DNA of 64,000 bases from Thuidium tamariscinum (taxonomy: Eukaryota > Streptophyta > Bryopsida > Hypnales > Thuidiaceae): positions 19,793,501 through 19,857,500 of the forward strand of contig OX344749.2 in NCBI GenBank assembly GCA_947034885.2. Reading direction: 5' to 3'. The notes beneath the pieces are model-generated. The model did no database searches. It saw nothing but the letters and a program-made list of their open reading frames with translations, and was not told where the DNA came from. Both the position numbers and the translations under genes were made by a program. Positions 2,191 through 47,000 of this stretch are shown here, piece after piece. The stretch's first letter is position 1. Every line of letters starts with the position of its first letter.

Positions 2191-2309
2191 TTATTGATGG
2201 GTTAGGGGTTTTGGGTAACTTAAGCGAATAGGGGATGGAGTTCAGAGTTTTTGGTTTGAGGGTGATGCAGTTTAGATTATAGGGTTTACCTCTAATTTGT
2301 GTGTGAACA

Positions 2310-5300
2310 GTAGTCGTAACGTTGGTTGATCAAAATGGTAGGGGCGAATGCAAATTTGTCGAAGAACTGCCAGAGTTCCCTGTACCAGGTTGCGGTTTAG
2401 GTGCTTGGTTGTCCGAAAAGTGTAAAGCAAATGGTTGAGAGAGGACTCGTAGGTGTCGTGCTCGGAAAGCTCAATCTTGCAGTGAACACGAGTTGGTCTC
2501 TACTAGAAGCTTAAACAGAGACCCTAAGTTCTTGGTTACAAGTCACAAACAAGCTCATAGGACTAGTGCTACTCTTGCTCGAGACATCAGTTTGTATGCA
2601 ACGAAGAAGATGAAGAACCATGAGACGGAGGTTTAGCACTTGACCGTCATGAAGATCTTAGGGCAACCGATACTGTCGAGCATGGTCCCTGATTTTTTAA
2701 GGGATCCTGTTGCAGTGAAATTGCGACATGATGTTGTAGGTAGCTTGAGAGATGGTTTAGGGAGTCACCTTGTGGGGCTCCGGAAAGCTAAAACTTTTCA
2801 AGCAAAGAACATTGTCACTACTTTTGCTGTTGCACCAGGAATTGGGAATGGGAGGGGTGTGGCAGGTTTACTTGGAGTAGATCGGAGGAGTATCAAGAAG
2901 GTGTTTGTGAGGAGAATTTTGCTGGACACAAAACAAGATGCGTTTTGGCTACAAGATCAGAGAAGAGTCCGCTCAGATGCTCTCTCAGATGCAACAAAGA
3001 AGATTATTAGCGAGTGGTGGGAAGAAGAGACTACAGTTTCTCCGAATCGGAAGGACATCGTTAGAAAGTGGATTGGGCGGAATCTTTACATTGAGCACGC
3101 TACTCACTATCTTCAAATCTCCCATGTACATCTGCAATTTTTAGTTTGGAGCTATGGTTTAGGGTGATATGTTACTGGCAGCTGCTATGGTGTCAATTTC
3201 GGTCACTTTCATTCATTCAAGGTTGGCTTAGGGTGTTCAATTCGTTCCTTAGTCATTCGGAGAGATTGCCAAGTGTTGTGAATGGGTCTGGGGCTCTAGG
3301 CCCAAGAGAGTATATAGTCAACAACATGTGCTTAGGTATTTAGGTCAACTTCTTCCCTACTTTACCGTCCTTTGCTGTAAGAAGATAAGTAAGCGGTTTA
3401 GGAAGTATTCTGGATAATGGCTCCATTACATTTTCATAGTCCTTTTCAGGAGGGGTTGCTTCTTTGGTCCTTTGTGGTCCTTAATTCAGCACTTTGTATT
3501 GGATTCCATAGCAACTAAGCACTTAGCATTGCTTTGGTCCTTTGTGGTCCTTGGTTCAGCACTTTGTATTGGATCGCATAGCAACTAAGCACTTAGTATT
3601 GCTTTGGTCTTTTGTGGTCCTTGGTTTAGCACTTTGTATTAGATCACATAGCAATTAAGCACTTTGTATTGCTTTGGTCCTTAGAGGTCCTTTGTTGTAC
3701 TATTTTTGAAGCAGATAATGAGAGTATATTGCTTTTGGGATGATTGGTCCTTTTTGGTCTTTTTTGGTCCTTTTCATAAGGAGCGTAGCACTGTTTGAGT
3801 GTTTGGAGAGTCCTTGCTGGTCTTTTGTGGTTCAAACTAACCAACTAAGGTCTGAGATGTACTTTGGTGGCAGTTGGAATTCTTCACCGAATTCAAAAAG
3901 AAGTATCCAGATCTGACATGTGGATTAAAGACGTTTGAGGCATTAAAATGTTGGTGGGTAAGGAGATTGAAAACATGGAATACATATTGTTGTAGGTACT
4001 ACCAAGATTTTTCAGATCTCTAACATGGCCTGAATGCTATGAAGTGTGATTTGCTGGGTGTACATAAAGATTGCACCTGTGATTGCATTGTTTGTGCTAC
4101 TATTTGTGATTGTGAAACAGTCGAAACTAGATGTGATGCCTATAATGAAGTTTATGAACGACTAACGCATTTGTGGAGTTCAGTTTTGTGCAAAAAGGGT
4201 GAATTCGAGATTTGGTACAAGCAGGAGTGCATTCTCGGTGATTGTGAGAATTGTGGTGTCCAAAATTTGCGGATTGCCCTAGCGAAGTTTCTTCTAAGAA
4301 GCTAGTGAAGTCGAAACGCATAGGGTATGAGGAAATCAGTGTGGGGGAAGATGGAAAGCAAAAGAAGGCCATCAAAGTCATCTACTGTGAGACCCCCCCT
4401 TCTGAACTCTTGAATTACTTGAAACCAAAATTGGAACAGTTCACAAAATTGGAACAGTTCATTGTGCACAACTTTTTTGCCTCGTGGTAGGACTTGCAAT
4501 TCAAAGAATTGTTCTCTTCAGTCCCTCATGGTACTCTCATATCTTGTATGGATTTCTCTGAAAACTATTCTATGAAAATTCAAAACGAAATCTAGTCTAT
4601 GCATTGGCGAAGTCAACAAGTATCGATTTTGGTCCACATTACTTATCGATTGAATCCTGATTGGACCTTGTCGGGTGATGAGCCTTACTTACTGAAGGAA
4701 GTTCACTATTATGTTTCAGATGACAAATGCCATGATTCCTTATATGTTCAGCATGCCTTCTCATTGCACTGGGGTTACCTGAAAGGAGAGGGATTTCAAC
4801 CCACTAACTATGTTGTGTGGAGCGATGGTTGCAGTGGGCAGTTCAAGTCTGCCCGAGCTTGGTACTTCATAAGTCGATTCCCTAGCTTGACAATGAGTGA
4901 TGAGTTGCCTGAAGGTTGTCAAATGTCATGGAATTACTTTGCATCTGGACATGGTAAAGGTGAAGTTGATGGGGCAGGGGCACTTCTGAAACGAGAGTTG
5001 TATAAGGAGCAACTCAAACCTAACGGGAGACAGCTCCAGAGCGCTGCTCATGTTGTTCGTTTTCTACAGGAAGAAAGTAATAAGTTTCATGCAGGGCAAT
5101 TAGGTGAATGCCAGAGAACCACAAAAAATTTCTAGGAAATCAAAGAAAGGGACATTTGCAGGGTGGACAAACTTGAGGCGGAAACGATTCCTGGGAGTCG
5201 AGGGATGCACCAATGCCGTTCTTTGTCGTGCAAGGACCCAACCTTGATCCAATTTCGGCAACTCACTTGTTTTTGTGTGTCTTGTTCTGATCCCAACTAT

Positions 5301-5351
5301 GATTTACCTTGCTACCAAAAGGCCCACGTGCCCAATTGGACACTACACTAG
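2310..5351 (+). pseudogene. Family A transposase-like gene (DFSENY / SDGC / HGKGEVDG), broken
   Basis: I read a decayed gene in two exons. Exon 1 (about 2,310-3,125) has a Cys-rich start (PGCGLGAW...KC) and a basic block (RARKAQSCSEHELVSTR). A GT-AG intron (3,126-3,873) carries a 70-bp tandem repeat. Exon 2 (3,874-5,351) shows, in order, a YPDLTCGLKTFEALK block, a Cys-cluster (CTCDCIVCATICDC), MDFSENYSMKIQNEI, VVWSDGCSGQFKS, SWNYFASGHGKGEVDG, GSRGMHQC and a C-terminal CFCVSC motif. I recognise this signature order from repetitive protein families scattered through animal and protist genomes. The Asp of DFSENY and of SDGC fit a DDE-type nuclease, but that is inference. In-frame stops lie at 2,436, 2,634, 4,021, 4,488, 4,593 and 5,133, with a frameshift near 4,275-4,300. 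All six stops are explained by one transition in a Gln or Arg codon. It is non-functional as read. Confidence 0.72.
3462..3700. repeat. 70-bp tandem repeat, about 3.4 copies
   Basis: The phrase 'ctttggtcc(t)tttgtggtcc' restarts at 3,462, 3,532, 3,602 and 3,672, exactly 70 bases apart. Each unit also has 'agcactttgtatt' and 'agcaa(c/t)taagcactt'. The units differ at only a few bases. The array lies inside the intron of the family A gene. Confidence 0.9.
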
Positions 5352-5584
5352 AAGAAAAGCCTCAAAATTTGCGTTTGTTTCAACATAACGCGTCAAGTGA
5401 GTTATATTGAAACAATCGCAGAAAACGTAGTGAAAAAGTGGAAAAATGCAGAAAAATGCAGAAAAATGCATTTTTTTGCGTTTTGCCACTTTTTCACTAC
5501 GATTTCTGCGTTTGTTTCAACATAACTCACTTGACGCGTTATCATTAGGAGTAAAATGGACCCACAAAGGGGCTGTCCATAGTG
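5346..5584. mobile_element. CACTA-like end fragment shared with the 12.36-12.43 kb sequence
   Basis: From 5,346 (CACTAGAAGAAAAGCCTC) the sequence matches the reverse complement of 12,427 down to about 12,361. The match runs through 'aatttgcgtttgtttcaac' and resumes with 'cattaggagta(a/g)aatggaccc'. CACTAGAAGAAAA resembles the end of a plant CACTA element or MITE. The 5-kb copy is interrupted by a 158-bp hairpin insertion. I found no matching opposite end with a target duplication, so its full extent is unknown. Confidence 0.5.
5385..5542. mobile_element. 158-bp foldback (hairpin) insertion
   Basis: Left arm 5,385-5,441 (ATAACGCGTCAAGTGAGTTA...) and right arm about 5,487-5,542 are near-perfect reverse complements of about 57 bases; the outer 21 match perfectly. 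The loop is AT-rich with three 'aaaaatgcag'-like repeats. The homologous sequence at 12.4 kb reads straight from 'tttcaac' to 'cattagg', so it is the empty site. No target duplication is visible. The right arm also repeats the flank 'gcgtttgtttcaac' (5,371-5,384). Transcribed, this would form a long hairpin RNA. Confidence 0.85.
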
Positions 5585-5589
5585 CAAAT

Positions 5590-6227
5590 TTCAATCAACT
5601 TTCAGCTTGGTGATTGCATTACAAAGCAATGATGTTGCCCTGGGCAGTCTCTTGATCTCAAAGATCAACGATAAAAAATAAATTCATAATTGGGCAGTCT
5701 GATATCATTGAAGAATAAAGCTGTTAGGCTGTCATTGTCAAGGCCTTGTGGGCTCCTTTGTACCATGACGTGTTCATCCAAGCATCCAGCTGGTATGAAC
5801 TTCCCGCCACGTGAATTTCCCGCCACGGTTATTTGCATGCAATCAACAGTTGTAAGTTAAACTGAGGCTCTCAACGATCAACGATGTCAATTTGATCTTC
5901 CTTGAGTGAGCTAATTCCTGAGTTTGAGATGAGCCACATTTGTGTTTCAATTTGTGTGTCAGGTGGAATCTTATCTATGTCAGAGTGATGTTAGGTTGTT
6001 AACTTGTTGTTAAGATCAATATGGCGCCTACTGTGTACAAAGCACAAGCGTCAATCGATGGAAAGTACGCACCGCTTATCCAGAGAGGAAAATTTGTCCA
6101 TGAATAGGTCTCGAAGTCTTCATTTCCTGAGAAGCGGAAAATAGGTTACAATAACTTAGATCTCTGGTACGATGCAAGCATCTATCCATTAGATCCACGA
6201 TCAGGGAAGCGTCCACGTTTTTCATGT
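5590..6227. other. Spacer between families A and B
   Basis: Unique-looking AT-rich DNA of about 640 bases. Small ORFs antisense to the start of the next gene are shadows. A short direct repeat, 'gggcagtct', occurs near 5,642 and 5,692. I see no promoter I can defend. Confidence 0.4.
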
Positions 6228-9200
6228 TTGAAATCGCTTTTGGAATTTGTTGGAGATGGTGAGGGCGGTTTATTTGGGTATGTAAAAAGTCTAGAGTCTC
6301 AGGGAGGTCAAAGTCACGAAACTCAGTATATCGTAGAGACTGCATTGCTGAAAGAGCGAGTACTTAGCTTGCAGAGAGAAATCAAATACCAACAATTACA
6401 AGTAGAGGCGATACCAAACTTAGAAGAGAGAATAGCTTCACTTGAGGCTGACCGATCTTCGTGTGAGGAGCAATTGCAGGCTTTGCAAATAGATGTTGAT
6501 TCTGAGAAGAAGGCAAGATTAGATTCTGAAGAGGGCCTTGAGCAACAGAAAATTCAGTTGATAGAGAATCACAATTTAGAACTGCAATCAATTCGAGTAG
6601 AGCTTATAAAGACAAAAGCTGCTTTGAAACGTGTAACTGTCAAGTTTCAGAGCTTGCGGAAAACACCATTTGGGTACCGCTCTCAAGTCAGGCAACGGAG
6701 AGATTTGTCAAGTTTATCTTAGAGAGGAGGTCATGCTAAAGTCCAAAAAAGGTTGTTACGTACTATTATTGGACCAGAAACAGTGCGTAACATCCAAGAA
6801 GAGAACGCATCTCAAGGAAGATCTCAACGTTTGCATGGCAATACTGCTTCACAAGTTGAATCTGGGCAAATTTTTGCTAGTCTTTTGTCAAAGACTGAAG
6901 TCAATTCCTTACTAGAATCACCAAAGTTGTCCCATGTTGGTACTAGGATGGTAAACCACTATTTAGAGAAGATTGGGAAGTCTATAGGACCAGAAAATAT
7001 CCTTGAAACTTGTGACAGAAATGGCATCACCCATTCTGGGTATGGTGCAATTTACAAGAACTTTCGAGGAGCTGTAAAGAGAGTAGGAAAAGGTATTCGA
7101 GTGGGATGCTTGCCAAATCCCTACCCAGTGTCACAACTTCGTCAGAAATTAAATTCTAAACTAGAGGACATTATTGGACAGTACTACCACATTGATAACA
7201 CCCTGGTCATTCCTCCCTCAGTTAAATCCAAATCTAAAGAGCCTCTAAAAATAGCCTTATCAGCTCGAAATTCCTTCTTTGTTGATTTAGAAACTGTGCA
7301 AAGGACGATGGTCCAATTTTACGGAATAACGACTGTAGAAGTTGAAGGTGATCCTCTCATCTTTTGCTTGAAGCTTGATGAGGCAGAAATTGTCCATGGG
7401 CAAAAATTAGAGCGAGTCTCTATTACACTGATGAATCGTGCACTTAATCCAGCCATCCAGCCAAATTCTCCAGAGTATTTTTCTGTCCAGTCCGAGAGGG
7501 AGATATGGCCCATTGCAAGTTTTCAAGTCGAAAAAGAGTCACACCAAGTGCTAGATTGGGTGTTTAAGCAAACACAGATTTCTAGCTTAATAGAAGCTCA
7601 AGAAGATGGGAAAAAACTTGAGGTACCAGGAATCGGGGACTTTAAAGTCCAATGGCACATGGCTGCTGATATGAAAACAGTGAAATGTATATATGGCCTT
7701 GGACACGGTGCTAATAGTCGATTTTGTTGCTTTTATTGCTTACAAGAAAGAACTAAACCTATTGTAACAACAATTGCAGCAGCCAGAGATATGCTTTCAG
7801 TGAAGCGCGGGAGCTCATGGGACGGGGGCCTTTTTTCCAGGAACCATCGTTCCAAACCAATCACTGGATCTCAAAGTTTGGGCCGCTAGAAACCTGTGTT
7901 AAAGATTCCTATGGATCGTGTTCACATATGCACATTACATGCCATGAATAGAATGGTTGAGAAGATTCTCCATTTACATTTCATTTTTTTATGGACAATC
8001 AGGGATAAGTCTGTACAAGCTTCAGCAATTGACCTCATGCAGAAGGTCATTTCTTCCACAGGAGCTCACGGAGGAAATGTAATTATTTTCAAAGACCCTC
8101 AGTTGTCAGGAAAATCGAATTCTGTGCCTAATAAACCCAGCTTGAGTGGTGCCAATTGCAACAAGTTATTTAAACCAAGTTCGTTAGAAGGTGGATTTGA
8201 GAAGTTATGGAAAGACGTAGTCAGTGCAACAAAGAATCTTCTAGATGGTGGAGATGCAAAAAGGCTACAGTTAGAGATGTGGGCTGCATTGGACGATTTA
8301 AAACAATATTTCAGTTCTGATCTCACATTGTCAGATGATCAACGCCACCAGTTCAAAGAGAAAGTTGAGCATTGGGGGCGGCTATTCATTCGTTGCTTTG
8401 GCGAGCAACATGTGACACATTACATGGTGAGTATAACTACTCTGATGAAGTGCAAATTAATCACCTTGAATTTGGACTTGGATATTGTAAGTGAATTAAA
8501 TTGCATATATCCTCAATCGTTTTGCAATACGTAAAAACTTAGCCTCATAAGTTTCTGTAACTTGTTTAATCTACATAGCTTTACTGCACTTGGTTCGTTA
8601 AGTTCCAATTATGGACATATGGTAGTTAATCAGGTCATTTAGTTCCAGTTCATTACTATGTCAAGTTCCAGTTAATTAGATCATTAAATTCTAGTTAATT
8701 GGATCAGTCATTTAGTTCTAGGTAATTGGATTGTTAAGTTTGAATTAATTGGTTCATTTAGTTCCAGTTAAATACTTAGTCAAGTTCTAGTTAATTCAGT
8801 GGTTAAGTTCCAATTAATGGATCATTAAATTCTAGTTTAATCCTTAAGCTTGACAGTTACAATCACAAGGTCGATCCTAAGTAACAGTCCTTTACCAGAC
8901 CTTTCTGACCTTCTGCATTTTGTAATCTAATATGTCCATCTTTGATATATGAGCATGCTCTGAATCATATATACAAAACTTGATTGAAATAGATCGTTTT
9001 TAGAATCCATGCATATCATTCTGCATCTCTAGAACTTCTATTGATTAATTATCTATGACAATAATGATGTACTAAAAACAAGGTTTTGGGTGTAGCATGT
9101 TATAGTAAAGCACGGACCATGGTTTGTCGAAGAGTACGGATCTCTTTCCGTTTGGAGCTGCCAGGGTATGGAGAACTCGCACCATGCTGCTAAGGCGGCT

Positions 9201-9548
9201 TATCATCGTCATACTCAACATTCTGGTGGGATTTCTAGAAAAAGCGCACTGCACCAAACCTTCGAGCATTGGTATCGCATTATACAGCATCGATTCCGCA
9301 ATAAGGAATTACAAGAAACTGAGGTACGAATACCACAATCAACTGAAGATATGGATGAAGCTTTAGCAACTAGACGAGCTCGCACTTTCTCCTCAAGCGC
9401 TGCTGCACATTGGGCAGAGTGGAGAGCTAATTGCACTCGCGAAGGATCCCGCTTCGTTCCTAATCAAGTTTCAGAAGATCAACAAATCTCTACTTCAGAA
9501 CTAATTGATGGTCAATGCGAGAATTTGGCAGAGGAGCCTACAGTTTGA
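6228..9548 (+). pseudogene. Family B transposase-like gene, copy 1 (two stops)
   Basis: One frame runs from 6,228 to 8,426, interrupted only by TAG at 6,720 and TAG at 7,887. A GT-AG intron (8,427-9,095) leads to a last exon at 9,096-9,548. The N-terminus is a coiled coil (about residues 40-150). It is followed by NSFFVDLETVQ, PLIFCLKLDEAE, SVQSEREIWPI, AADMKTVKCIYGL, CCFYC, VHICTLHAMNR, HVTHYM and, after the intron, KHGPWFVEEYGS and QGMENSHHAAKAA. The Asp of ADMKT and the Glu of QGMENSH fit the first and last acids of a DDE nuclease, which is inference. Copy 2 at 44-47 kb has TGG (Trp) where this copy has the 7,887 stop, so that stop is a G-to-A change. It lies 0.9 kb downstream of family A in the same orientation. 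I cannot name the superfamily. Confidence 0.75.
8427..9095 (+). other. Intron of family B copy 1, with irregular short repeats
   Basis: The donor follows CATTACATG and the acceptor precedes CATGTTATA. Copy 2 has an intron at the same codon boundary (46,662-46,788), which confirms the placement. Inside it, about 8,600-8,850 holds an irregular array of about 20-25-bp units built on 'gttccagttaattggatcatt'. Confidence 0.7.
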
Positions 9549-9549
9549 T

Positions 9550-10590
9550 GTTGCTTTATATACTGATAAGGCAAAATAATTCTTGACAAATGCACTTGAC
9601 TGAATTCGCTTATATGAGGATTAAGATAATAATAATAATATTAATGAGAGAGTTTGGACATGCAGTCTTCAGACCAAGCTCACAGTCTCTCTCCTTCTCT
9701 GCTCATGTTCATTCCTAGCTTTGCGCTCAGTCTGACTCCCTGTAGGCTCAGTTAAGCTTCCCAGTCGCTCCCGACTCTCCCTTCAGCTCGAACTCCTGCC
9801 CTTTTGATCTCGTCGATGTTGCTCCTCCTTGTCCGTCTCGCCACCCGATCCCTCCACTGCGAGCTCTCGTCCCGAAGAAGCCTTTGGTACTTTGAAGTCC
9901 GAACCCCCTCCCCGATTCGCTCATTGGTTCCCTTCTCGCCTCCGACCTTTCGCCCGCTCCTCTTTCCGTTCTGTCCCCCTGCTTCCACCTCGCTCGGCCC
10001 CACTCCCAGTGCGATCAGTCCGCCCAGACTCGCCCGGAAGCTGCCTGCTCCTGGCTCCGATCGCCCCCTCCTTTCTGAGGAAGCTCCCTTGCGCCTGGTT
10101 CAGTCTCCTCTTTTTTTTCCTTTTTCTCCCGAGCTAACCTCCTTTGTTTTGATCTCCTCCCCTGGTTTTGGAGAAGAAACTGGTTCATAACTGTCAATCT
10201 ATTGAACAACTCAGAGTCTCTTAGGGGGCATCACCTCCTCATCAATTTGCTTCTTTTCATTGCGCCTGTTGATCTGCAAATCATTTTACATGAACTAGAA
10301 TCACTGACTGTAACTATTGTTCAATTAAATCCATATCTGAAGTGTATGTATCAAGAGAGGAATCGCTTGAATATATAGCAAGACTTACTCAGTATACTTC
10401 AATAATAACCTCCATTCTAGACAGTAAAAATTCTCAAATAGTGCAATCAAATTTGTTTATGAGCTATTACTTCTTGTCATTTAGTATTCAGATTTGAAAA
10501 CAAGTACTACAAATAACTAGTTCATAGCATTAAGTATTGTAAGTATATAGTACATAATATTATATATTACTTTAGATATTGTAAATATTC
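9550..10590. other. Spacer with a CT-rich, GC-rich patch
   Basis: Around 9,630 there is an (aat)n run. From 9,680 to 10,180 the plus strand is strongly C/T-rich and GC-rich compared with its surroundings. Open frames there on both strands are compositional artefacts: low-complexity Ser/Pro/Arg strings with no motif. The patch could be the 5' leader or LTR part of a retroelement, but I find no primer-binding site, polypurine tract or second LTR. Confidence 0.35.
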
Positions 10591-10593
10591 TTA

Positions 10594-11867
10594 TTAAGCC
10601 TGTATACGAGAATAATAGCCACTTTCTTTCTTAGTTAAGTTGTGGCTCGAAATTAAAACCTTCTGTGCTGGCAGTCCATCTTGAACGATCCACAATTGAA
10701 ACTCTTCTGGCAGAGTTGCTCCAAATGTTATACAAAGCTCTTGCCGCACATTCGAGATCGTCCAATTCTTGCACACTTCAACTTCATCCTGCCATCCTTC
10801 AAATTCACATAAAATTTTGATAACATCGATGGGTCCGCTCTGATCGATAAGTTCCCAAATGCCTGCTACGCAACGTGCTCTGTTGTAACTGAAGTTACAG
10901 TACAATATTGATCAACTGATGTGAAATCGAAATCGAATGGAATGACAATCCACTGTACACTTTATGATATCGTTTCCAACTGTAACCTTGGTATTCCAAC
11001 CAGCATCCATGAGAGACGACAACAATTCTTCCGAAATGTCTTTGACCACAAAGAATGTTGTTGTCCTGTGAATGTTGGAGGCATTTGAAAACAAATCAAC
11101 TAGTACGTGAACTGGCATCCACCACTGTAGATGTGTCTACTTATTACTTGTACTAGGTCTCATTGACAAGAGAAAATCACTACGCATGCGAGCTCGAAAT
11201 GACTCTGAGGTATCCATGTCCGGCAGAGGCCATGAAGGATCATCAAATGCAGGTAGAGGAATAGATTCCAAACTACCAAACTGCTCTTGCCCTACTCGTG
11301 GGTGATAGTATGCATTATAAAAGAACAAACTTTCCTGTAAGAGTTCCTTGTGGGTGCGGTCACCTCGACTTGGTTCTCCAATATTAGCATGTACAACGTT
11401 GATTGGACCGGTTATGCTTTTAACATCAATCCAATCCTCATAACGTGAAGGATACAAATCTGCCAAAAATAACAGAATAATAAAAATATAAGGTCAAAGA
11501 ATCTAAAGATATTGAAAAAATAGATTGCAGTTATAATAGAGATTAAGGAGTACTTACAGTTGCAACCACATTGTGCTATGTGATTACGAGGATTCAGATC
11601 CAATTGCCTCATCATATATGCATGCTGAACTCGCACTTCGGTGACAATCAATGAGCCCGGTTTTACACGAAACTGCAAGATTCGAGCCTTATAATCACCT
11701 TCAACACTACTGCTTTTATACTTTTTAGCGTCTCGTGCATGGCTGCCTTGTTTTCTAGGCATTAGCATCACCCATGAGTGTATCTCATACTTCTGCGGTA
11801 TCCACTCTCCTTGAGAGTCTCTCACATTATATAACATAACAGCCTGAATAGATGATCGCGGTCTCAT
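10594..11867 (-). pseudogene. Unrecognised two-exon gene with two premature stops
   Basis: Exon 1 is 11,867-11,558 (start MRPRSSIQAV) and exon 2 is 11,459-10,594, joined by a clean GT-AG intron (11,459/11,558 borders, donor GTAAGT, acceptor TTTTTGGCAG). The joined frame is 392 codons. It is broken only by TAG at 11,137-11,139 and TGA at 10,912-10,914, both one transition away from Gln and Arg or Trp codons. Notable segments are VQHAYMMRQLDLNPRN, HANIGEPSRGDRTHKELL, and a C-terminal stretch (ISNVRQEL...LPEEFQLWIVQDG) that has the look of a ubiquitin-like or PB1-type fold. That last point is a guess. I recognise no family. It lies between family B copy 1 and a family A scrap, so it may be a cargo or accessory gene of an old element. 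Confidence 0.55.
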
Positions 11868-11930
11868 CTTTCAAGGTTTTTGATATAAAAAAGGATTGCT
11901 AACCACAAATAAACTTACAAAAATGCTTAT

Positions 11931-12050
11931 ACAAAGCTTCGATAACCAACACAGAGCTTCCACAACTCATACTGAACTTCTATAACTCACACAAAGCTTC
12001 CACGGCTCAGACAGAGCTTCCATAGCTCACACAGACAAAGCTTCCATAGA
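11931..12050. repeat. 20-bp tandem repeat, five copies plus a partial one
   Basis: Units of 'aca(a/g)agcttccacaactcac' type start at 11,931, 11,951, 11,971, 11,991 and 12,011, exactly 20 bases apart, with a degenerate tail to about 12,050. It lies just upstream of the start of the minus-strand pseudogene. Confidence 0.85.
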
Positions 12051-12360
12051 GCTCCACTGGAGAAGTTGAAAGTTGTCCTTTTGTAAAATGATAACAAGCC
12101 AGGTGTTATGTTTTCATTCCTTCTCTGTGTTGTACAAGCTCTGGCATTACTACATCCTGCTGGAACTGTGATGATAGCGTACTAAAGCCCTTGTGGGTTT
12201 GTAATGATGTATACTTCTCAGACTCACGCTTAGGACGATTCTCATTAGCCAGACACCTCTTTGTTTTTCACCATCAATCCTACATGGTGGCCTCAATGCC
12301 ACGCTGGTGAATTCATCATTATGGACTGGGCAATGTAAATTTTGGGGAGAACTCGAAGCC

Positions 12361-12427
12361 CTCTTTAGGGTCCATTCTACTCCTAATGGTTGAAACAAAC
12401 GCAAATTTTGAGGCTTTTCTTCTAGTG
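12361..12427 (-). mobile_element. Short repeat matching 5.35 kb; empty site of the foldback
   Basis: Read on the minus strand from 12,427 it begins CACTAGAAGAAAAGCCTC and matches the 5.35-kb copy for about 65 bases. It lacks the 158-bp hairpin, which makes it a natural unoccupied site. Confidence 0.7.
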
Positions 12428-12510
12428 CTACGAAGGATCTATCCGAAGTCCAGGACAAGCTTGCATAATCTACCTGAGCACGATTGGGACGACACTGAAG
12501 CTGATGTTGA

Positions 12511-12916
12511 GGCGACATTGTAGGGGAGAAAGTGCGAGTTGGCTTCAACATTGCTGTGAAGGCTGACTCAGACAATGGTGAAGCATTTTGGATAATGTTG
12601 GTGACAAAAGGAGAGCATGTGAATGCTTTGGCGTTCAAGGATGAATACGAGAATGAATTTGTGCCGAGTGAAAGCCTAATTCAAGGCTATTTGGTACAAA
12701 CAATATGCACCTGCCTCCAGAACTTATTTACTCCACGATGATAAGGCATTTGCGTATGTGCATAGCCATGCTGTTTTACTTTCCGATTTGGGGATGCCTC
12801 CTACGGCGCATTCTGTAAACGGAAATTTTGTGAGTTATGAGTTACAAGTGCCCGTTTTGGACTCCATAATTGGGTCTCTTTTAGATGTGGAGGCTACAAG
12901 GGGGCTTTCTGCTTGA
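12511..12916 (+). pseudogene. Family A-type C-terminal fragment
   Basis: The frame from 12,511 (GEKVRVGFNIAVKADSD, GEAFWIML) stops at 12,739. A +1 shift then continues with DDKAFAYVHSH and VNGNFVSYELQVP to a stop at 12,914. A 'G-E-x-F-W' motif followed by an aromatic 'AYxxSH' block is what I expect at the C-terminus of DFSENY-type proteins, which is memory-based inference. The upstream part of such a gene is missing or scrambled. It may be the relic of a second family A copy. Confidence 0.4.
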
Positions 12917-14456
12917 AATGGATTTCCTCATGGTGATACCGTTTAGAAATGTAAACACCCATTTTTCCAGCCGTACATTTTCTTCCTTGAGCACTACGTA
13001 GTTCATTTATGTGGATTTTTCTTTGGCTTGCATTTGACATGCGGTTTGCTAAAGTTGAGGTGTGATTTGCAGGACTGAGGAGTACTTCGCTGTTTTACTG
13101 ATGGTGAACCGAGTTTAGTCTTCCACATTTGCAAGAGAATCAGATGCAATCACCGTGCTTGAACAAATTTGAGTTGTGGTTATGTGTAACTGCTCCAAGT
13201 TTTAGCAGTTGTTGCCTCCGTATGTGAGGTATGTGTTTCAATTTGTAAGTTTCAATTACATTGTCATGTGGTTAATGATTTGTTGCTTCCATTCAATTCT
13301 AAAGCAACTATAAGAGGGTGTTTGTGTTCATTTCGGACTTAGGACCGCAGTTCTAGCAAATATCTGCAAATCTTCACATTCACAGAACTTCACATTTTGT
13401 TTTATCTGTATTGGTTCCTTTGACTTTAGGGTGTCTGGATTTAAGGATTAGGATCTTGCAAAGCTCTTCTTACCTCAGCTGCCTTGACATTAGAAAGCCT
13501 TTTGTGAATCATGATGGCCCAGTTTCCCTTCACGAAGGCTGAACTCGAATTGTCCCAAACTTGGATTGACATAGTAAGCTTTCTTTTGGTTGTGAATTCC
13601 TCATCTTTTGGGATGGAAGTTTGGCCACTTTTCTTTAAAGAAATACTTGGATTTAGGCTCTACTATTTACTAAAATCCAAGCTTATATAAACTCTTGACT
13701 TGTAACAGGTGCATGGTAATGACTTTGGAGCATGTTTGGGTGGTTTAGAGTTAGCTTCTGCACTTAGCTCTTTAAGGAATGGTTGTTGAGGTACAATACC
13801 ATTTTGTAAGCAGGTTTTTGGCATACTATGAATATGAATGGACTCAATGTGATTTACCCCAAATTTTGTGGTTGTATTGGGTTTCAATTCTATTTAATAC
13901 AATTTAGGTGACTGCATTTTATTCAGTTTGATTTATCATTCACAAATTCACAATACATATGACTGTTTTCGATTCTCCCTTAGTGCACAAAGATAGACCA
14001 AATACTTAACTATCTTTCATAGACAGGTTAAGGACCTTGTATTGGATGTTGGAGTCAATGTTTGGAACCCTGTCCATGACTCCATGTGCAATGTTTTCCC
14101 TTATTTACCTTAAAAAGACATGGATCATTCCAACTACACACCAAAAAAGCATCTATAATCATAGAAACTGCATTGGATTAAAATGTATTGAATTAACTTG
14201 CATTTTAAACAACACTTGACAAAACAACACTTGAAGGGCAAAGGAGAAGCATAGAGCTCCAATTTCAGAATACAAATACACTAAGTGATGTTATGGAACC
14301 ACATTTTTATTGAAAGGGGCGTTGCCAAAAAAAACAGTGAGCTGCTGCGGTTTAGGGAGCAACGAGTACATTTCACAATGTACTCAAAACTTGGCTCCAT
14401 AGCAAGGAGTGCAACTTATCCTACATTCTACCTTAATCACTATGGCACCCTACATT
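12917..14456. other. Spacer downstream of the B3 gene
   Basis: No gene can be supported. The phrase 'atggcccagtttcccttcacgaag' near 13,510 would read MAQFPFTKAELELSQTW and ends near a GT donor (13,575), so it could be a tiny plus-strand exon, but nothing continues it. The rest is AT-rich and unremarkable. Confidence 0.3.
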
Positions 14457-17400
14457 CTACTCTAAGAACTCTTTCTTTCGTGTTATAGACACAAAGAAGT
14501 TGGATTCAACAGTGAGAGAAAATGTCAAGTGGTCGCCTTCTTGCAAGCAATGAGAGGCCACAAACTGTTTCCACCTGTGTCCCATTTTCACTTGGGGCTC
14601 TCCTTCCTTGTTTTGCACATTCACGTTCACTTCCCACTGTGAATTTTGTTCATCAGACTGGATTTGTATCGAGTTCCCAATTTGCCCTCCATAGTCACAC
14701 ATAAAAGGTGTTGGCAGCGTCTACAAGGCAAAGCTACAAATGCAAAGCCACAACAACACAAAGTCAAGTGAATGTCAAGTGCTGCTTCTACACACTTAAA
14801 TCGTAATTCTCTGAGCAAGTTCAGTAAACACTAATGTCCAAGAGACCTAAAACAGTCAACAACAGTCCCTCATGTACACCACGTGAGCCTCAAGACAAAC
14901 CGCTCTTTAAACCTGCATGGGATGACTTCTTCCTAAAAATAACACAATCCCTTCTTCATACTACAGTGCTACAAAAAGGACAAACTTCAATCGAAAAAAG
15001 AACACAAAAATTCAACCATTACTTCCAACATTTGAAGCACAAGATTATAAAAACGCACCAAAGTGCAAAATGTTGACCTCTTAACCTCCCTTTCAAAGCT
15101 GGGAAACTGGCCCAAGTCTACATAACTCCCATCCAAGTTCCACAATGTGTTTCTATCTTGGCCAAAGGATGACATGGTAATGGAGAAAACAAACTCAAAG
15201 ACAAGAACCTTGAGTAAGAGTATAGCACTCAAACTCCCTGAAAGTGGCAACTTCTTCAGCCTCAGTGCTCAATTAGTAGGCTTGTAGTTAAGAGAGAAGG
15301 AAGTATATGCAGCTCTCTCTATCATGACACAGAACACTTGCAAGTGAAGTCAGTAGATTCCAAATCCAAATTCACCATCACAAGCGATTCTTCTAAGCTT
15401 CAAAAGACAGTCTGCGTCCCATCGCTAAACCCCAACCCATACCCAGGAATCATTCACGTGTCAAAATGGCTCATTTTGATTATGCGAGAAGATTGAGCAC
15501 AGATTGCATTCAAAAGTTGTTAAATCATAATTCTCCGACATGTGATACTACACATGTGTAAGTCTGAGTTATATATACATGTCCATTGTCGTAAGGTATC
15601 TATAAAAAAAATACAAACTAGCACATCTACATGTCCATATACCTACTGAATACAAGGAATGAGACTCATTAACGTGTGTTCCAATTTTTTAGCCTCACTG
15701 AGACGATGACAAACATCAAGAATGGTAAACTCACAACGTATTGATTACATAATACCTGATGGTGTTAAAAATGCCATATTCCACTCCAAATTCGGGGGGC
15801 TCCAACTGTGATCTGTACTTACTGTAAATCTTCAATTCGAAGTACCCTCTATGCATAGCTTCAAGGTAGATCCTACATGAAACCACAGAATTGAAGGTAG
15901 TAGCTCATGATTACTTCTGTTGTCTAACAACCTACAGAAAAGAGATACATACCAAACTAGACCATAAATATACATCTTGGATTCAACTTGCCCACAAGAG
16001 GGAGCCCAAAACTGAAAATAGATGCATAACTAACAAACACATGAGACCTTCATGTGAAACAATGACAGGTTTGCGCAATTTTGTTGTCATCGTTTCTTAG
16101 TGTCAGCTCGAGTAGAAACTCTGCCTGCAAGTGTATATAGAAGGACCTCACGGGATTTTCTCTTGGAATTCTTTGTCTTGGCTTTTCCCTTGGGACTGAC
16201 GGAATTCAAAGACCTACACTTAATTGTTTCCTCGCCACTTGATTGTACAATAGGATCCGATTCAACTACCATAAGTGGTCCACTTTGTACTAAGCTACTC
16301 AAAGCTACTTTCTTCCTCTTGTCTTCATTGTCGTCTAAGAAATCAACAGGTCTCTTCAAGAGAGAGCATCTGAACTTTGGAATGCCAAGAAACTCACAAT
16401 CACTACTAAGTCTTGACTTGTCTGCACCAAGGGAAAGTCACCCGAAAAGCCTCAAGCAATGGCATTGCACAGTAGGCATTTGCACAAAACTTGAAAAACA
16501 GAAATTTGAAGGACCCTCAAAATTAACAACAAACTAGTGAAGTAGGTTTTAAGCAAGCTTACCATGTCCCTCATCTTGTGCCATCCCCAAAGGTTCTTGC
16601 AAATCTAAATCCAAAGAATCATAACATCAATATCATTGACATTTCAGGGTGCAATTTCTAGTAGCCTAAAACAAGGGGACAGGGATGACGGGACGTCCGG
16701 ACGTCCATGGGACGTAGACACTACCCCTCGGACGTCCTGTGACATTTGAAATTTTTTTTGACATACGTCCAGCGGACGGGCGACCGGACAGCCATGCGGA
16801 CGGCCTTTCAATAAGACAGAAGGCGGACGGGTGGTCGGTCGGACTACGGACGGAGCAGCGGACGGCACCATCCGACCTCCCGTCCGCAGTCTCCGACCGC
16901 CCATCCGCACTCCCCGACCCCCCGTCCGCACTCCCAGACCGCCGTCCGACGGCGGTCTGGGAGTGCGGACGGGGGGTCTGGGAGTGCGGACGGGCGGTCG
17001 GGGAGTGCGGATGGGCGGTCGGAGACTGCAGACGGGCGGTCAGACGGTGCCGTCCGCAGTCCGACCGCAGTCTCCGACCGCCCGTCCGCAGTTTCCGACC
17101 CCCCGTCCGCACGTCTACTTCCGACGGATGCCGTCCGTTGGTCGCCGAGGACTACGTCCACTGCGTCCACTGCGTCCGGACGTCCGGATTTTGGACGTAA
17201 TTTTGCCCTAGACGTTGCAATTCGTCAACCCTGCAAGGGGAGAGTAATTACACAACCAATACGCCTTCATGTCCAAACCTGGATTAGCAATGACATCTGT
17301 AGCACCAATTGCATGACATTCCACACCACGAGTCTTCACTGGCGACTCGGCTTCTTGATCTCCTCCGGAATTTGAAACACCCAGCTCTACCTTAGTGTAT

Positions 17401-28363: not shown

Positions 28364-31300
28364 ATGGGACTTCCATCGTCGGTGAACCCGGTGCCCAGAC
28401 CGCTCGTATTTGCTTTGAATGGGCAGCGCATGGTGCTTTCTTCATTGGATCCTGCCACCACTCTCCTCTCCTATATTCGCAGCGAGACTCGATTCAAAGG
28501 CCCCAAACGCGGTTGTGGCGAAGGTATAATCTCATCAAATCCTAGTCATGGTGGAGTGCGTGCCGCTCAGGAGACACTCACTGTGTTTGAAGAGAATTCG
28601 GACCCAGAGTTTCATGTTCAGGGAGTGGTATCACCTGAGCTGAAACATCAAACATCTCCAAGTTCACTTTCATGGTTAAGTTCTGCGAGATTTTCAATTT
28701 TTACAGTCTCGCCTGTCGATGTGCGTTTCAGGTGGCTGTGGAGCATGCTTGGTGATGTTAGCAAAGTACAACCCTGAAACGAAAGAAGTGAAGGAAAGCT
28801 CCGTGAACTCCTGCTTGGTGATGCTCTGCTCGATCGATGGCTGCGCAATCACCACCACGGAAGGCTTGGGCAACCAGCGAGACGGCTTCCACGCCATCCA
28901 GAAACGGCTGTCTGCATTCCACGGCTCCCAGTGCGGCTTCTGCACCCCAGGGATGACAGTCGCCATCTACGACCGTCTCAAGCACGAACAGCACCAGCAT
29001 CAAGATTCATGGTCAGCAATCAATGGCCACAGCAACTGCAACCCGACATCAGGCCCTTCCATGGAAACCATGGAGAGAGCCATCCAAGGCAACATCTGCC
29101 GCTGCACGGGCTACCGCCCCATCCTCGACGTGTGCAAGTCCTTCGCCTCCGACGTCGACCTTGAAGATCTAGGTCTCAACACCTGCTGGACTGACAAAGC
29201 GCAAGCCAAACCAGAGAATCTCCCAGCATACGATTCCACCGCTGACCCCACATTCCCGCAGTTTCTCATCGACGAGATCGAGTCCAGGAAGCAAGTGCCT
29301 GGTAGAATTGCAAGTTCAGACGGCGAAGCTGAATTAGACGCACGCTTCACGTGTGTGGATCATCGTGGCGAGCACGAGCGGTCGTGGGTGAGCATCGCCG
29401 ACTTCGAGGAGTTACGCACTGCATTGAAATTCTTGAAACCGAAGCGCGACCGGGTGAAGCTCGTCGTCGGCAACACGAGCTCCGGGCTTTTCAAAGAGAC
29501 CGCCACCGTCAACACCTTCGTGGACATCAGCCAGATCCCTCAGCTTTTGACTCTCCACAAAAGCAGTCACAGCCTAGAAGTCGGTGCTGCAACTCGAATC
29601 TCGGAGCTCATGGATCACTTGGAAAATTTCCAAAGTGAGGACGGAAGCAAGCACCCTGTGGCGGAAGGTCTCGTGGACCACTTGAAGAAACTAGCCGGGG
29701 GTCACGTCCGCAACTGGGGAAGCGTGGGAGGGAATTTGGTTATGGCCCAGCAATTCGCCTTTGAATCCGACATAGCTACTATCCTTTTAGGCGCAGGGGC
29801 GTCAGTCAAGGTAATCACATTGCGAGGGTCGGAGTTTCCCGTCAACGGCATGCCTTTGGAGGACTTTCTCGCTTTGGGGAGCCTCGGTGAGGATCGTCTG
29901 CTCCAGTCGATGTACATTCCTTTGGACGGAGATTCCAAAACCACGGTTTTTAAGTCGTTTCGGGGAGCGCCCAGGCCGTACGGCAATGCGGTCGCATATG
30001 CGAACTCTGCTTTTTTGGCCCGAGTTTCTTCGGAGGGAGGTGTGATTGAGAGTGTCAGGTTGGCATTTGGGGCGTTTGGGACCAAGCATGCCGTCAGGGC
30101 TGGGCGTGTCGAGAAGCTTTTGACGGGGAAGGCGTTAAGCTGGAGCTTAGTGAAGGAAGCCGTGGAGGTTTTGAAGAAGGATGTGGTCCCCAGTCAAGGC
30201 TCCAGTAAGAGGGAGTACCGAGTCAGCCTTGCTGTGGGGTTTCTGTTCGACTTTCTCGCGTCTATGCTTACCAAAGAGCCAATATTGACGCCCACACACC
30301 TTGTAAGTGCTCGTGGAAAACACCAGGCTTTTAATAATTAATGCTAGTAAGAGTACTTGGGCGATTGCTTTGAACTTTAGGATCAGATATGGTTTGCACA
30401 GAACTCGTTATTGCCTTGGCTTGGAATATATCGCTTGACTCAAGTATTGAAATACATGCGCTGAATTTGTGTGCAGTTCCCACATACTGGACAGCAAAAT
30501 ATCACTGTCTCTGATGAGCATTACCCTCTGTCGCAACCTGTAGCAAAGTTTCTATCCCAGCAACAAGCATCTGGTATGTAAATGTCTGAGTTCTTTCAGG
30601 TCGCAGAGATTGTATCAAACAGCATAATATTCTTTACCAAGCTTGAAATGTCCCTCGCTTCTGAGAATGGAGTTAGCAGTAAATATGCGTGCACATAAAT
30701 CTTTAGATTTGTAACTTTACCTTGGTGGACACTTGAAAGGGAAGGAATCAGGCACCAGAAAGGGGCGGTATTTGGAAGGGTTTTGAAAAGATAGCTTGGC
30801 GTGTGTTACAATTTTCTCATTTATTGACACTGTCTCCCTTGAAGATTTCGAAAGAGACCCCAGAATTGTATGTACAAGATGAATAAACAGTCTGAATCAT
30901 CGATTTAATGACGAATTGGTTGCGCAGGGGAGGCCGTATATTGTGACGACATTCCTTCCCCTCCTCATTGCCTTCACGCGGCGTTTGTGCTCAGTACAGA
31001 GCCTTTGGCAAAGATTAAAGTTGTTGATACTGCGCCAGCACTCGAGTCCGTCGGTGCAGTGGATTTTGTCTCCACCAGTGACATTCCTAAAAAGGGTCGA
31101 AACGTTGGCGTTTTTAACGTTTTCAATCATTCAGAGGAACCCTTATTTGCCGAAGATCTTGTTGGATATGTGGGTCAACCATTGGGAGTAGTGGTAAACT
31201 CTTCATTTCACCGAGACACGTTTTTTATTTTCTTGTCACTCACAAATCATGCTCTCTGCATGGAATTGCCTTGAAGTCATAATAGATCTTTAGCAACTAA

Positions 31301-33382: not shown

Positions 33383-33415
<33 letters not shown>

Positions 33416-41730: not shown

Positions 41731-43269
41731 GTCAAGTGTAATTTTGTGGATTAAATTTTGATTTGTCTTGGAATTTACTTATTTATTCCATTTTCATTCA
41801 TTGCACTATAAATCCTAGAGTAGTAGGTCAAATTCTAATATACAATTATGAGTTTTCATATTTTAGGTTGTTTTTGTATATTTTATTATAAAGAATAGTA
41901 AGTACAAAATTCTATAGACTATATTAGGCTTAGTCATGATTAAACTTTCTAACTTCAATTACTAAGATCTTGTAATCAATGATAGAGGTGGAAATCTCTA
42001 AAATAACTACTATACATTGCTATAGTATATGAATGCATTCTACTAGTATAGTATAGTCAAATTTTTAACAAATAGCTTTTCTCATTCTTTCACAATATAT
42101 TCAAGATGACATCTGTTTTGTAATAGGTAACATTGACCTTTTAGGAATTAATTTATACCAAAACTAACTTTTGAACAAACAAAAAAAGACTATAAATTAC
42201 TTACTTCAATTTGTCATTTTAGGTTTTAATGAATTTGTTGATATCAAAACTAGTACACTTTTGTACTAGTAATTCATGGAGTTTTGTATTTTCTACTAGT
42301 ACATTAATTTTTAGATGGTTTTGTTTAAAATTACACAATTTTTTATTTAAAATTCAAGATTAGCTTGTAAAGTTATTAAAAAAATGTTAAGCCCCATATT
42401 CAAATGTTTAATAAGTGTCTTTTGTATTTTTATTCTTATACCACAATTTAGGCGTTGAATTGGTGAATGCATTAGAAAACCTTTAGGCTCTTAAAGAGGC
42501 CTTGTAAGGTAGCTGGTGGACAACAACTTGTCATTGACTTTCCATTCGGGCAGGGTCACTACATATGTAATTTAGAAGGGGGCTGGCACTACTAGTCGTT
42601 ATTCTATATAATGCAAATGTACAACTAGGGGCTGGTAATACTTAGGTGGAGAGACACAGTGGCACATGCTACCAAAATGGGGGCTAGCTTCTATCCTAAA
42701 AATGATTTTGACTGTAGGGTATCTGTCCCTACATTAGAAATTTTATATTGTTGAAGTAGTTGTACAAAATTTGAGCGTGAAAACAGATTTAGCATGCAAA
42801 CTAAAATGAATTTGGCAGGATTGCACACATTTTTGCCACTTTGATGTCCTTGAGTACAAGAAGGTTATGTTTGTGCTCTTATTGTAGGAGTGAAGTTTCA
42901 CTATAGCACTAAGAGATGTGACAAACACAAGTACTTCCTACATTCCATAAATTCAACTTGAAGGGAAGTATACTCCATTGATTTGGCGTGGAAAGACCTT
43001 TGATACATAAGCATCACACAGTAGTTTTCAAATCAAAAGGGCAGCTGGTGAGACAAACATTGATCTATAGGTGGATGGGCACCTTTATCTTGTTGACCTT
43101 GCCTACCTGCCACTTAGATGCCCCCAACATTTAGTACCACAAAGGTGTACTTGGAGTTTCTTTGCAATGGTGAAAAAGACTGTTGGGCTACACACAGCGT
43201 TTAAAGGCCGGGGATAATGCACAAACCGTACATAGGAGTGTTTTGACACTTGAATTAACCCCTAAAGCC
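41731..43269. other. AT-rich spacer, no gene seen
   Basis: AT-rich, with several TAGT/ACTA-rich stretches near 42.25 kb. Nothing I can name. Confidence 0.3.
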
Positions 43270-44215
43270 CTGAACATTGTTTTTTGAGATTATAAATTTT
43301 TTGGGCAGTTCACTACGGATGGAGTTTTTATTTTTATTTTTTGAAATTTTGATACAATATGTGCCCAAGGAGTAGCTTTAAGGCCCAATAGTTTTCATAA
43401 ATTTTGACTTCACGGTTAAAAATTTATGGTAGGATATGTTGTTTTCTTTACTCGACGGGCAGCCTGGATAGCTGGAAAAACTTCTTCAAAAAAAAAATTT
43501 CTTAAAAAGTGAAATTTCAAATTGGTTCTTTAGGTTTATACAGACATGGGAAGCTTTGAATCAATCCATTCCGATCAATGAGTCAAAAGTTATGAAGATT
43601 TTGAGTTTGGGGTAGTTTGCGGCCAGTTATAGAATCTCTATAGTACAAAAAAAGTTTGAAATTCTTCATTTAATTCAATTTTTCATATTTTTGGAAAAAA
43701 TAAAAACAGATGGTATAGATTGTTTATTATGACATTTTAACCATTGGGATTGAAAATTTTCAATTCCATGAATAAAATGTTCACAATTTGGTGTTTTGGC
43801 TCATTTTTTACTTCTTTCTACTTACTTATTTTTTCCTATATGTTGTACAATTCCAAATGGTTTGAAATTTTTTGAGAATGTATCCAACTTGCATTGAAGT
43901 ATGAATTCAAAGAGTAACCACCATTTTGAATTTTTTTCACACAAATGTGACCTTGTGAAGTGCAGCTGCCCGGATTTTCGCAGGGATAAAAAAACAATTT
44001 TTGTCAATTCAAATGCTTATATCTTGCAATCTACATGGTGGAAATTTATGAAATTTTTTCGACATTTTTACAAACCACCTTACTACAAGATCCTATGGTT
44101 ACATGAGTCAAAAATGTGTTTTAAAAAAAAATTGCACTTGTATTAGAAATGGCAATTTTGGAGCATTTTTGGTGAAAACATAGTCAAAAACCTTTAGGGA
44201 TTAAAGGTGACAAGA
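43270..44215. repeat. Dispersed AT-rich repeat, copy 2
   Basis: The partner of the 40.4-41.7 kb repeat in direct orientation; see the shared blocks listed there. It ends immediately upstream of the second family B gene, so it may be part of that element's 5' flank. Confidence 0.7.
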
Positions 44216-44236
44216 TACGAAGTTGAAATTTAAGAA

Positions 44237-47000
44237 TTGCGGGTCTTATGTGAGCATCTCAAATCTCTTGCCAGCACATTGTTGATTGCTGGAATTGAAG
44301 ACATTATTGGACACCAAAAATTGTGCTACGATGTTGAAGTACTTGAAGCTAGATGTAGTGAGCTTATATCCATGTTGACACAATGTGAGCATAACCGTGT
44401 GGTAGAGAGTACTGACTATCGTCAAAAAGTTGAGGCATTGGAAGAAGAGTTGCAAAGATGCAATGTTGAATACAAGGCATTAGAAAAGAAGATGTGTTCC
44501 TTGCTTGAGACTCCAAGAGCCTATCGCCAACGAATCCATGGTTCAAAGATGAAAAGTTTCAGTGATCTTTCTTCTGATAGCGGGTATGCAAAGTGCCAAC
44601 GAGCTTGTGAGAGGCATGCCTGTGGTTGTGGCAGCAGTACAACATGAAAATAAGCAGGGAGGAAGGAAAAAACGGCTTACTAGGGATTTTGTTGCTGAGG
44701 TGAAGACTACCGAATGTATTGCCAACATGTTGAGGCCCAGTGAGGCAACTACATTAGTCAACCAACCTAAGATGTCAGAAGCTACAATGTCAATGTTGAA
44801 GAAAGTGATCAAGCGTATTGAGGATAGCATACGAGAGGATTGTATGTTGGACTCATGCAATGTAGCTGGGGTCACAAGGCAAGGATATATTAGTATTTAC
44901 AAGATAGCGAAGAATCAAATTGGACTTATAGCACTCGGATTCAAATCAAGTATTTTGCCAACGCCGCATCGACTTGCGAAGTTGCAGAAGTAGATGAATG
45001 CTAAGTTGCCGCAATTTATTGGAGAATACTACAGCATTGAAGGACGCCGCATGATTCCAGAAGTGCGGGTGGATGGCAAGGTGATCACTATAGCAAAAGA
45101 AGTCATACTGGATAATAAGAACAATTTTTTTGTTGACTTGGAGGTTGTCCAATGCTCAATGGTAATGTTCTATGAAATGACAGTAGTAGGTAAAGGGCTC
45201 ATCATAATCTATAGTATAGTGTGGTCTACTGAAATTACACAAGCTATATTATGCCATCATATGAATTGATTTTGTTGTGCTAAATTGTATCAATGTAGTT
45301 TGCAGAGTGCAATGGAGGACCTTTGATATTTGTGCTGAAGCTTGATGAAGCAAAAGTTTTGGAAGGTAGAAAATTTGAAAGGATAAGTTTGACCTTAATG
45401 AATCGGGCACTAGATACAAACATTCAAAAGGATGATGCCAAATATATTTCTGTCCAATCTAAGCAAGAGATATGGCCCATAGGCTACTTTGAAGTTGGGA
45501 AGGAGTCTTATAACGTGCTTAAGTGGGCATTCGAAAAGACAAAGTTCCCTGAAGTTATAGCAACTCAAATTGAGGGCTAAAATCTTGTTGTAGATGGGGT
45601 AGGTAGCTTCCAAATTGAGTGGTATCTCAATGCAGATATGAAGACAATAAAGTGCATGTATAGACTTCAACATGAACCCTCATGTAAGATGACTTGTATC
45701 TATTGTCACTTTGTGAGTAAGTCCATGAAAGAGTAAAGACTTCTACAAGTGCTAAAGCAAAGAGGATAAAGTTGCGGGCACTACAAGAAACTCATGTTTT
45801 GGGTGACGAGCCCTAATTTTTTATGACGGATTTTAGGTGATGTCAATGTTTACAACTCAAAAATTTTATGTCAACAAAAATGTCCAATGTAACATCAATG
45901 TTGATAGTCTAATGTTTTTATGTTAACAGTGATGTTACATTGGACATTTTTGTTGACATAAAGTTTTTGAGTTGTTAGCATTGACATCACCTAAAATCCG
46001 TTATAAAAAATTAGGGCTCGTCACCAAAGATAAAGGTTTCTTATAGTGGGGGGAAAGGTACATGGCAAGGTGGTCTTTTTGCACCACAAATATCAGAAGA
46101 GCCATGTGACATTAGCACGCATTTAAGGTGGAAGCCAATCCTACCGATTCCTCTTTCTAGAACTCATATTTGCACATTGCATGCACAAGTGCATATCATT
46201 GAAAAGATATTGCACCTTCATTTATGTTCATCTAGAACATGTAAGATGTTACAAGGAAAGCAAAGGCTATTGAATCCATAGAGAGGACACTATCAGTGAT
46301 CGGTGTGGAACACGGTAACTGCCAATTAAAAAAAGACTAGAAGAAATCAGGTAAAATTGGGAATGTCGTATCAATGCCAAGTCTAAATGGTGGAGTGGCA
46401 GCAAAACTTTTTTGAGGTAGCACATGGTCATTGTATGATAAAGTCTAGAAAGAAGTGTGTATAGCTGAGTCAAACTGCCTCGAGGGGGGAATGGGTTGAC
46501 AAAAGCGATGGAAGGTATAGAAGACGTTGGAAGATCTACAACCTTACTTAACAAGACTTGTACTTACATAAGGGCAATGTGAAAGTTGTTGAGCTAAGAT
46601 GGACGCATTTGGAAAGGCCTTCTTAGTAGCATTCGGAAAAACCCACATGACACACTACATTGTAAGGAGCTTATTTTAGAAGATTTGAAATTAAACTTCT
46701 TTTCTATTGAAGCTATGCATGCATAGTTAATATTCTCTTTGTGTATCAAATATCTATGCCTAATTAAGTTCTTTATTTGCATATGCAGCATGTTCTTGTC
46801 AAACACGGACCATGGTTTGTTGAAGAATTTGGAAGCTTATTAATTTGGAACTACCAAGGGATGGAGAAATCCCACCATGTTGCGAAGGCTGCCACACAAG
46901 TTCATACACAACATGGGGGGACAAGAAACCGTACAAGCATCATTATACAACAATACGAGTCGTAGTATCGATGCATTCAACATCGCTATCACTACAAGAA
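44237..47000 (+). pseudogene. Family B transposase-like gene, copy 2 (heavily broken)
   Basis: A paralogue of the 6.2-9.55 kb gene. A coiled-coil N-terminus (44,237-44,590) shifts frame near 44,560-44,600 into 44,562-44,993. TAG at 44,991 interrupts LAKLQK/MNAKLPQF. The frame continues through NFFVDLEVVQ to a GT-AG intron (45,190-45,305) that copy 1 lacks. It resumes at PLIFVLKLDEAK, SVQSKQEIWPI, TAA at 45,578, then NADMKTIKCMYRL and CIYC. A 270-bp MITE splits the coding region at 45,779. Beyond it come RWKPILPIP, RTHICTLHAQ, THYI, an intron (46,662-46,788) at the same place as in copy 1, then KHGPWFVEEFGS and QGMEKSHHVAKAA. A second MITE follows at 46,990. It is dead, but it confirms the conserved blocks of the family. 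Confidence 0.75.
45779..46048. mobile_element. 270-bp CACTA-type foldback MITE, copy 1
   Basis: It starts CACTACAAGAAA and ends TTTCTTATAGTG, nearly a reverse complement. It is flanked by a 3-bp duplication 'ggg' (45,776-45,778 and 46,049-46,051). The interior is one long inverted repeat of about 110 bases per arm around a loop near 45,910. It is inserted in the coding sequence of family B copy 2. It has no ORF. CACTA-superfamily elements typically duplicate 2-3 bp and end in CACTA. Confidence 0.9.

Follow-up and report, generated by a model that had tools for sequence, protein, structure and literature searches.

A 64,000-nucleotide stretch of the genome of the moss Thuidium tamariscinum (assembly GCA_947034885.2, contig OX344749.2, positions 19,793,501 to 19,857,500 of the forward strand; hereafter the window, in whose numbering all coordinates are given) carries two transposase-like genes on its plus strand, here called A and B. 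The original prediction described them as two DDE-like gene families arranged head to tail, either as two genes of one large element or as two independent insertions. Based on the analysis reported here, B is very probably the gene of a 7082-bp DNA transposon with CACTA ends which lies inside the coding region of A, the latter being a separate gene and likely the transposase gene of another DNA transposon. The features of the locus are the following (P0001, P0002 and similar names denote related proteins):

2640..3137, plus strand: probable N-terminal exon of A (…RSDALSDATKKIISEWWEEETTVSPNRKDIVRKWIGRNLYIEHATHYLQIS), an open reading frame (ORF) resembling by eye the N-terminal part of P0031/P0032
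3138..3873, plus strand: probable intron of A, bounds approximate (the alignment of P0011 starts at 3868)
3874..5345, plus strand: main exon of A left of the insertion, carrying all three D in the order MDFSENY, SDGC, GEVDG; P0011 aligns at 71-75% identity
5343..5345, no strand: target-site duplication CTA, left copy, read from the sequence
5346..5384, plus strand: left terminal inverted repeat (TIR) of the B element, CACTAGAAGAAAAGCCTCAAAATTTGCGTTTGTTTCAAC, a 39-bp inverted repeat that begins with CACTA
5385..5542, no strand: 158-bp palindrome in the left end of the B element, arms 92% complementary
6021..8426, plus strand: exon 1 of the B transposase, with the KLDE and ADMKT aspartates, CxxC and HICTLH (ORF and alignment to relatives)
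8427..9095, plus strand: intron of the B gene (GT..AG), 669 bp, placed by the splice point of the relatives
9096..9548, plus strand: exon 2 of the B transposase, with HVIVKH (HxxxxH), GPWFVEE and QGMENSH (last E), from alignment to relatives
10597..11867, minus strand: possible second gene of the B element, in pieces (11867-11556, 11463-11143, 11121-10924, 10905-10597), which are open, coding-looking stretches
12389..12427, minus strand: right TIR of the B element, the perfect inverse of the left 39 bp
12428..12430, no strand: target-site duplication CTA, right copy, read from the sequence
12431..12907, plus strand: coding region of A right of the insertion (P0011 residues 522-651)

Results

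The B element and its insertion in A

The B element spans 5346-12427 (7082 bp) and has the ends CACTA..TAGTG, the end sequence that we use as its label being CACTAGAAGAAAAGCC. Among the perfect inverted pairs of the 64 kb whose arms lie more than 1 kb from each other, its TIRs are the longest, and of the 12 longest they alone have matching flanking trinucleotides (CTA/CTA). The first 21 bp of the TIR (with up to 3 mismatches) occur at 2 places only in the window, where 0.00 are expected, and the match between the two ends grows to 59/60 bp when the 158-bp palindrome is skipped. No obvious target duplication was seen at this palindrome (5385-5542), which may derive from a related element, because one of its arms repeats GCGTTTGTTTCAAC of the TIR.

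The reading frame of A runs to the left CTA, where it reads ...AHVPNWTL, and picks up in frame after the right CTA with RRIYPKSR.... In the relative P0011, whose C-terminal part aligns to 12514-12907, the uninterrupted site can be read without a break (...SHVTDWTLRRIVPKSR...). In 29 of the 33 relatives of A, the insertion point is crossed without an inserted element, the alignment covering 8 or more residues to its left and 6 or more to its right, if loosely in the most distant rows; residues are missing on one or both sides in the remaining four. The TIRs, the duplication and the nesting are read directly from the sequences. When A, B and 43 relatives were compared with the whole window (E <= 1e-3), all matches outside 2300-13000 came from B or its relatives.

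Several points of the original prediction can be judged on this basis. The motifs that it quoted for A (MDFSENY, VVWSDGC..QF, HGKGEVDG) and for B (ADMKT, HICTLHA, GPWFVEE, QGMENSH) are all in the window, on the plus strand and in the stated order, and its view of A and B as unrelated families agrees with a profile comparison, which detected no kinship between them. The head-to-tail arrangement at 0.9 kb is correct for the left part of A and the B gene; because B is nested in A, it is measured from that left part to a gene within the inserted element, and A resumes beyond that element. A does not end before B, since its frame reaches 5345 and continues at 12431-12907, and a start at 2310 found no support, the first recognisable exon of A lying at about 2640-3137. 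As to shared terminal repeats, which the original prediction proposed to look for, the repeats found in this window enclose B and leave A outside.

The B gene and its relatives

The splice point of B (…YMV) is the place where 6 of the 8 aligned relatives continue into other sequence; P0006 ends before it, and P0002 reads across the intron as YMHILLVHGPYY, its junction reading YMHILLVHGPYYATQGSLAIWSTQGME as against YMHVIVKHGPWFVEEYGSLSVWSCQGME in the window. An acceptor just before CACGGACC was considered and then replaced by the one at 9095, where P0002 shows HILLVHGP. The query of the homologue search was spliced at the CACGGACC acceptor and is five residues short. At least 10 relatives were found among the matches listed, all at 4e-18 or better (7997 candidates scored), and two of them carry an organism name, in both cases that of the fern Adiantum nelumboides. 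The close relative P0001 is open and shares 89% identity with B across 84% of the searched part.

In P0002, the motif residues are D404, D501, C521xxC524, HxCTLH (580-585), H755xxxxH760 and E779, and the same order is found in B and in the second copy described below (B2). The two D, the CxxC and the HxCTLH are invariant in 8/8 aligned relatives, whereas the C-terminal H-H-E part is covered by P0002, B and B2 only, being conserved in all three; both motif order and conservation are direct observations from the alignments. In Pfam searches with the B fragments and the 8 aligned relatives no model reached the cut-off, and the weak matches (E <= 1) were mostly to coiled-coil families and included no transposase model, in a search made without a positive control. 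A search of solved structures by sequence, using the B profile, gave three weak matches and no transposase, and no relatives of A or B were found in viral contigs. At the structural level, a Foldseek search with the predicted fold of a B relative matched RAG1 (the protein which rearranges vertebrate antibody genes), ProtoRAG and Transib, with E down to 3e-7. At E <= 1e-3 there are 7 fold matches, all of them to these three, and no others reach 1e-3 among the matches listed. Residue E962 of RAG1 is given in PDB titles.

Three in-frame TAG stops (6105, 6720 and 7887) interrupt the B gene, and the main coding stretch of A contains four in-frame stops; apparent frameshifts of A lie near 4275, left of the insertion, and near 12515 and 12685, right of it. 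That TAG might be read as an amino acid in B, all three stops being TAG, was rejected in favour of decay, because P0001 has W at the third stop (SVGRWKPVLK, as against SLGR*KPVLK) and because the coding stretch of A also has TAA and frameshifts. The broken frames are directly visible: in their present state, neither the B copy nor the A copy can give a complete protein.

The minus-strand stretches at 10597-11867 may be a second gene of the B element, judging from their coding-like sequence; they gave no Pfam match at cut-off and have no further copy in the window.

A second copy of B

A further copy of B lies downstream in the window:

42933..46989, plus strand: second, older and broken B copy (B2), found by similarity search, catalytic motifs readable

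The motifs KLDE, ADMKT, CxxC, HICTLH, HVLVKH and QGME can still be read in B2, together with several stops. No family A sequence was detected near it (A and its relatives against the whole window, E <= 1e-3). The ends of B2 were not found by a TIR search in which the best 25 of 168 inverted pairs were looked at; around B2, the sole pair starting with CAC and having at most 2 mismatches in 13 (40759/50088) shows a 2-bp flank match, evaluated without a shuffle control. The alignments of B2 extend to 47001, but a miniature inverted-repeat transposable element (MITE) starts at 46990. This is one of two near-alike 270-bp foldback MITEs (45779-46048 and 46990-47259, with the ends CACTACAAGAAA…TATAGTG), which are flanked by 3-bp duplications, GGG/GGG and TAT/TAT, one being located within B2 and the other where the last aligned exon of B2 ends.

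Family A

The homologue search for A gave 33 relatives at E <= 1e-3 (5895 candidates), the open P0011 being 70% identical. Only one of them carries an organism name, that of the insect Tuta absoluta, and this is a distant match (E 7e-9); the animal relatives of A may be Sola2-like. The triad D229/D320/D368 is kept in 33, 31 and 32 of the 33 relatives, respectively; for the acidic neighbour E366 the count is only 26. No Pfam model reached the cut-off for A. Its predicted structure has an RNase H core, and in a comparison with a viral fold library one match was found at E <= 0.001, to a Lactobacillus phage protein named transactivator/viroplasmin. The A protein is predicted to be a DDD transposase of RNase H fold, probably similar to Sola. 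No TIR with a 4-bp flank match was found around A at the thresholds tried (the best inverted local match between its two flanks has an E of 0.26), nor did a search confined to each flank yield its ends, which may be eroded. Just upstream of A there is a direct repeat (1843-1972 / 2078-2210, 77% identical), possibly a subterminal repeat of an A element, and the probable intron of A contains a minisatellite (70 bp x 3.4, at 3462-3696).

Other features of the window

Besides A and B, the window contains a GC-rich 21-bp tandem repeat with nested inverted repeats (16846-17116) and the exons of a molybdenum hydroxylase gene of the aldehyde oxidase/xanthine dehydrogenase type (28719-35196), with FAD, 2Fe-2S and molybdopterin domains. 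At 60898-62130, on the minus strand, there is an open gene of one exon, with F-box and kelch matches that are weak and fall below the cut-off; it has 13 relatives, of which only 3 are named, each from the moss Ceratodon purpureus and at 50-54% identity, and one of these is called F-box domain-containing. By themselves these relatives would make a moss other than Ceratodon the most likely host. Rfam and tRNA scans of the window gave no matches.

Discussion

The relationship between A and B can now be considered settled: the B element lies within the A gene, and relatives show what the site looks like when nothing interrupts it. Nested transposons are common in plant genomes, and nothing known is overturned by this finding. 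That A and B might instead be two genes of one large composite transposon, moving together, is in our judgement close to impossible: the two share a strand and lie within 1 kb of each other, and according to an excerpt of the CACTA literature (PMC4158355) such elements do carry two ORFs, but A lies outside the TIRs and the duplication of B, its frame continues across the B element, B2 occurs without A, and the B element has a candidate second gene of its own, on the minus strand. The composite element was therefore rejected (between the TIRs at 5346-5384 and 12389-12427 there is B but not A, which lies on both sides), so that, of the two options in the original prediction, the two independent insertions stand and the single two-gene element falls. 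The prediction was also right in taking both as DDE/DDD-type families, an RNase H-like core being predicted for each. The affiliation of A is more delicate. Sola, according to the published features as excerpted, is a DDD transposase known from the moss Physcomitrella, and the DDD triad and the presence in a moss fit A; there is nonetheless a nearly even chance that A belongs to another or unnamed DDD superfamily, given that no Pfam match reached the cut-off, that neither ends nor a 4-bp duplication were found, and that the comparison with Sola is one of described features.

For B, the ends, the 3-bp duplication and the DDE/C2C/HxxxxH pattern place it in the CACTA-Mirage-Chapaev-Transib (CMCT) group, although the original prediction assigned it to no standard plant superfamily and no Pfam model reaches the cut-off. 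Excerpts of the description of this clade (PMC12730594) give as its signature C(2)C and H(3-4)H between the second D and the last E (two C plus three H), and as element features duplications of 2-5 bp and, for the most part, CA..TG termini. B has the D, D, E, C(2)C and HxxxxH (the assignment of the third H being inferred), its one element with known ends has CACTA..TAGTG termini and a CTA/CTA duplication, and its predicted fold is RAG1-like; by the published criteria tested, B belongs to the CMCT clade.

Within the clade, two readings seem to us about equally plausible, each falling somewhat short of an even chance. One equates B with Lanisha, a lineage that has been named before and that forms an EnSpm-like group of the CMCT clade. 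Lanisha (of Maumus, McDaniel and Carey, 2020, Repbase Reports) reportedly comes from Ceratodon purpureus, the moss that also supplies all named relatives (3/13) of the F-box gene of the window. Excerpts of its description as an EnSpm-like CMCT lineage with C(2)C and H(3-4)H (PMC12730594) suit B, but nothing links the two directly, the comparison being one of described features. The other takes B for a divergent offshoot of ordinary CACTA/EnSpm: its CACTA termini, short (39-bp) TIR, 3-bp duplication and possible second ORF fit the textbook definition as excerpted (CACTA..TAGTG ends, TIRs mostly <50 bp, 3-bp duplications; PMC10741241), and it is the lack of a transposase model among the weak Pfam matches of B and its 8 relatives (in the uncontrolled search mentioned above) that speaks against it. 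We regard it as unlikely that B forms a RAG1-fold transposase lineage of its own, with CACTA-ended elements of mosses and ferns, distinct from EnSpm, Lanisha and Transib. If this were true, B would be a plant-side branch showing how the RAG1/Transib core relates to CACTA ends.

As for the mechanism, we infer the biochemical activity, the cut-and-paste movement and which element each gene mobilised. The B protein would likely be a DDE transposase with a predicted RAG1/Transib-type RNase H core, which, by analogy with Transib and RAG1, might bind both CACTA ends as a dimer and cut the element out. The excised element would then be joined to its target with a 3-bp stagger, leaving the CTA repeat. 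The product of A would have mobilised the element that received the B insertion; the A and B copies are both broken now. Whatever its exact affiliation, B represents a plant protein family without a Pfam model and with two named fern members, tied here to CACTA ends and to a predicted RAG1-type core; it would serve as a marker in annotating the genomes of mosses and ferns, and as a plant test case for the link between CACTA, Transib and RAG1.

Comparison with known systems

With Sola, A shares the DDD transposase and differs in that the 4-bp duplication and TIRs were not found for it, the two being compared by description. B and Lanisha, likewise compared by description, share the EnSpm-like CMCT motif pattern. 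With Transib, RAG1 and ProtoRAG, B shares the predicted RNase H core, the CxxC, the HxxxxH and an E located 19-20 residues past the second H; it differs in its long helical N-terminal region, in the combination of a 3-bp duplication (5 bp in Transib) with CACTA ends, and in identity, which is only 12-17% in structural alignments. With CACTA/EnSpm elements, B shares the CACTA..TAGTG ends, the TIR of <50 bp, the 3-bp duplication, an intron in the transposase gene and, possibly, a second gene, whereas no Pfam model is found at cut-off on its transposase and its element is 7.1 kb long, the usual CACTA element being >10 kb according to an excerpt of PMC10741241.
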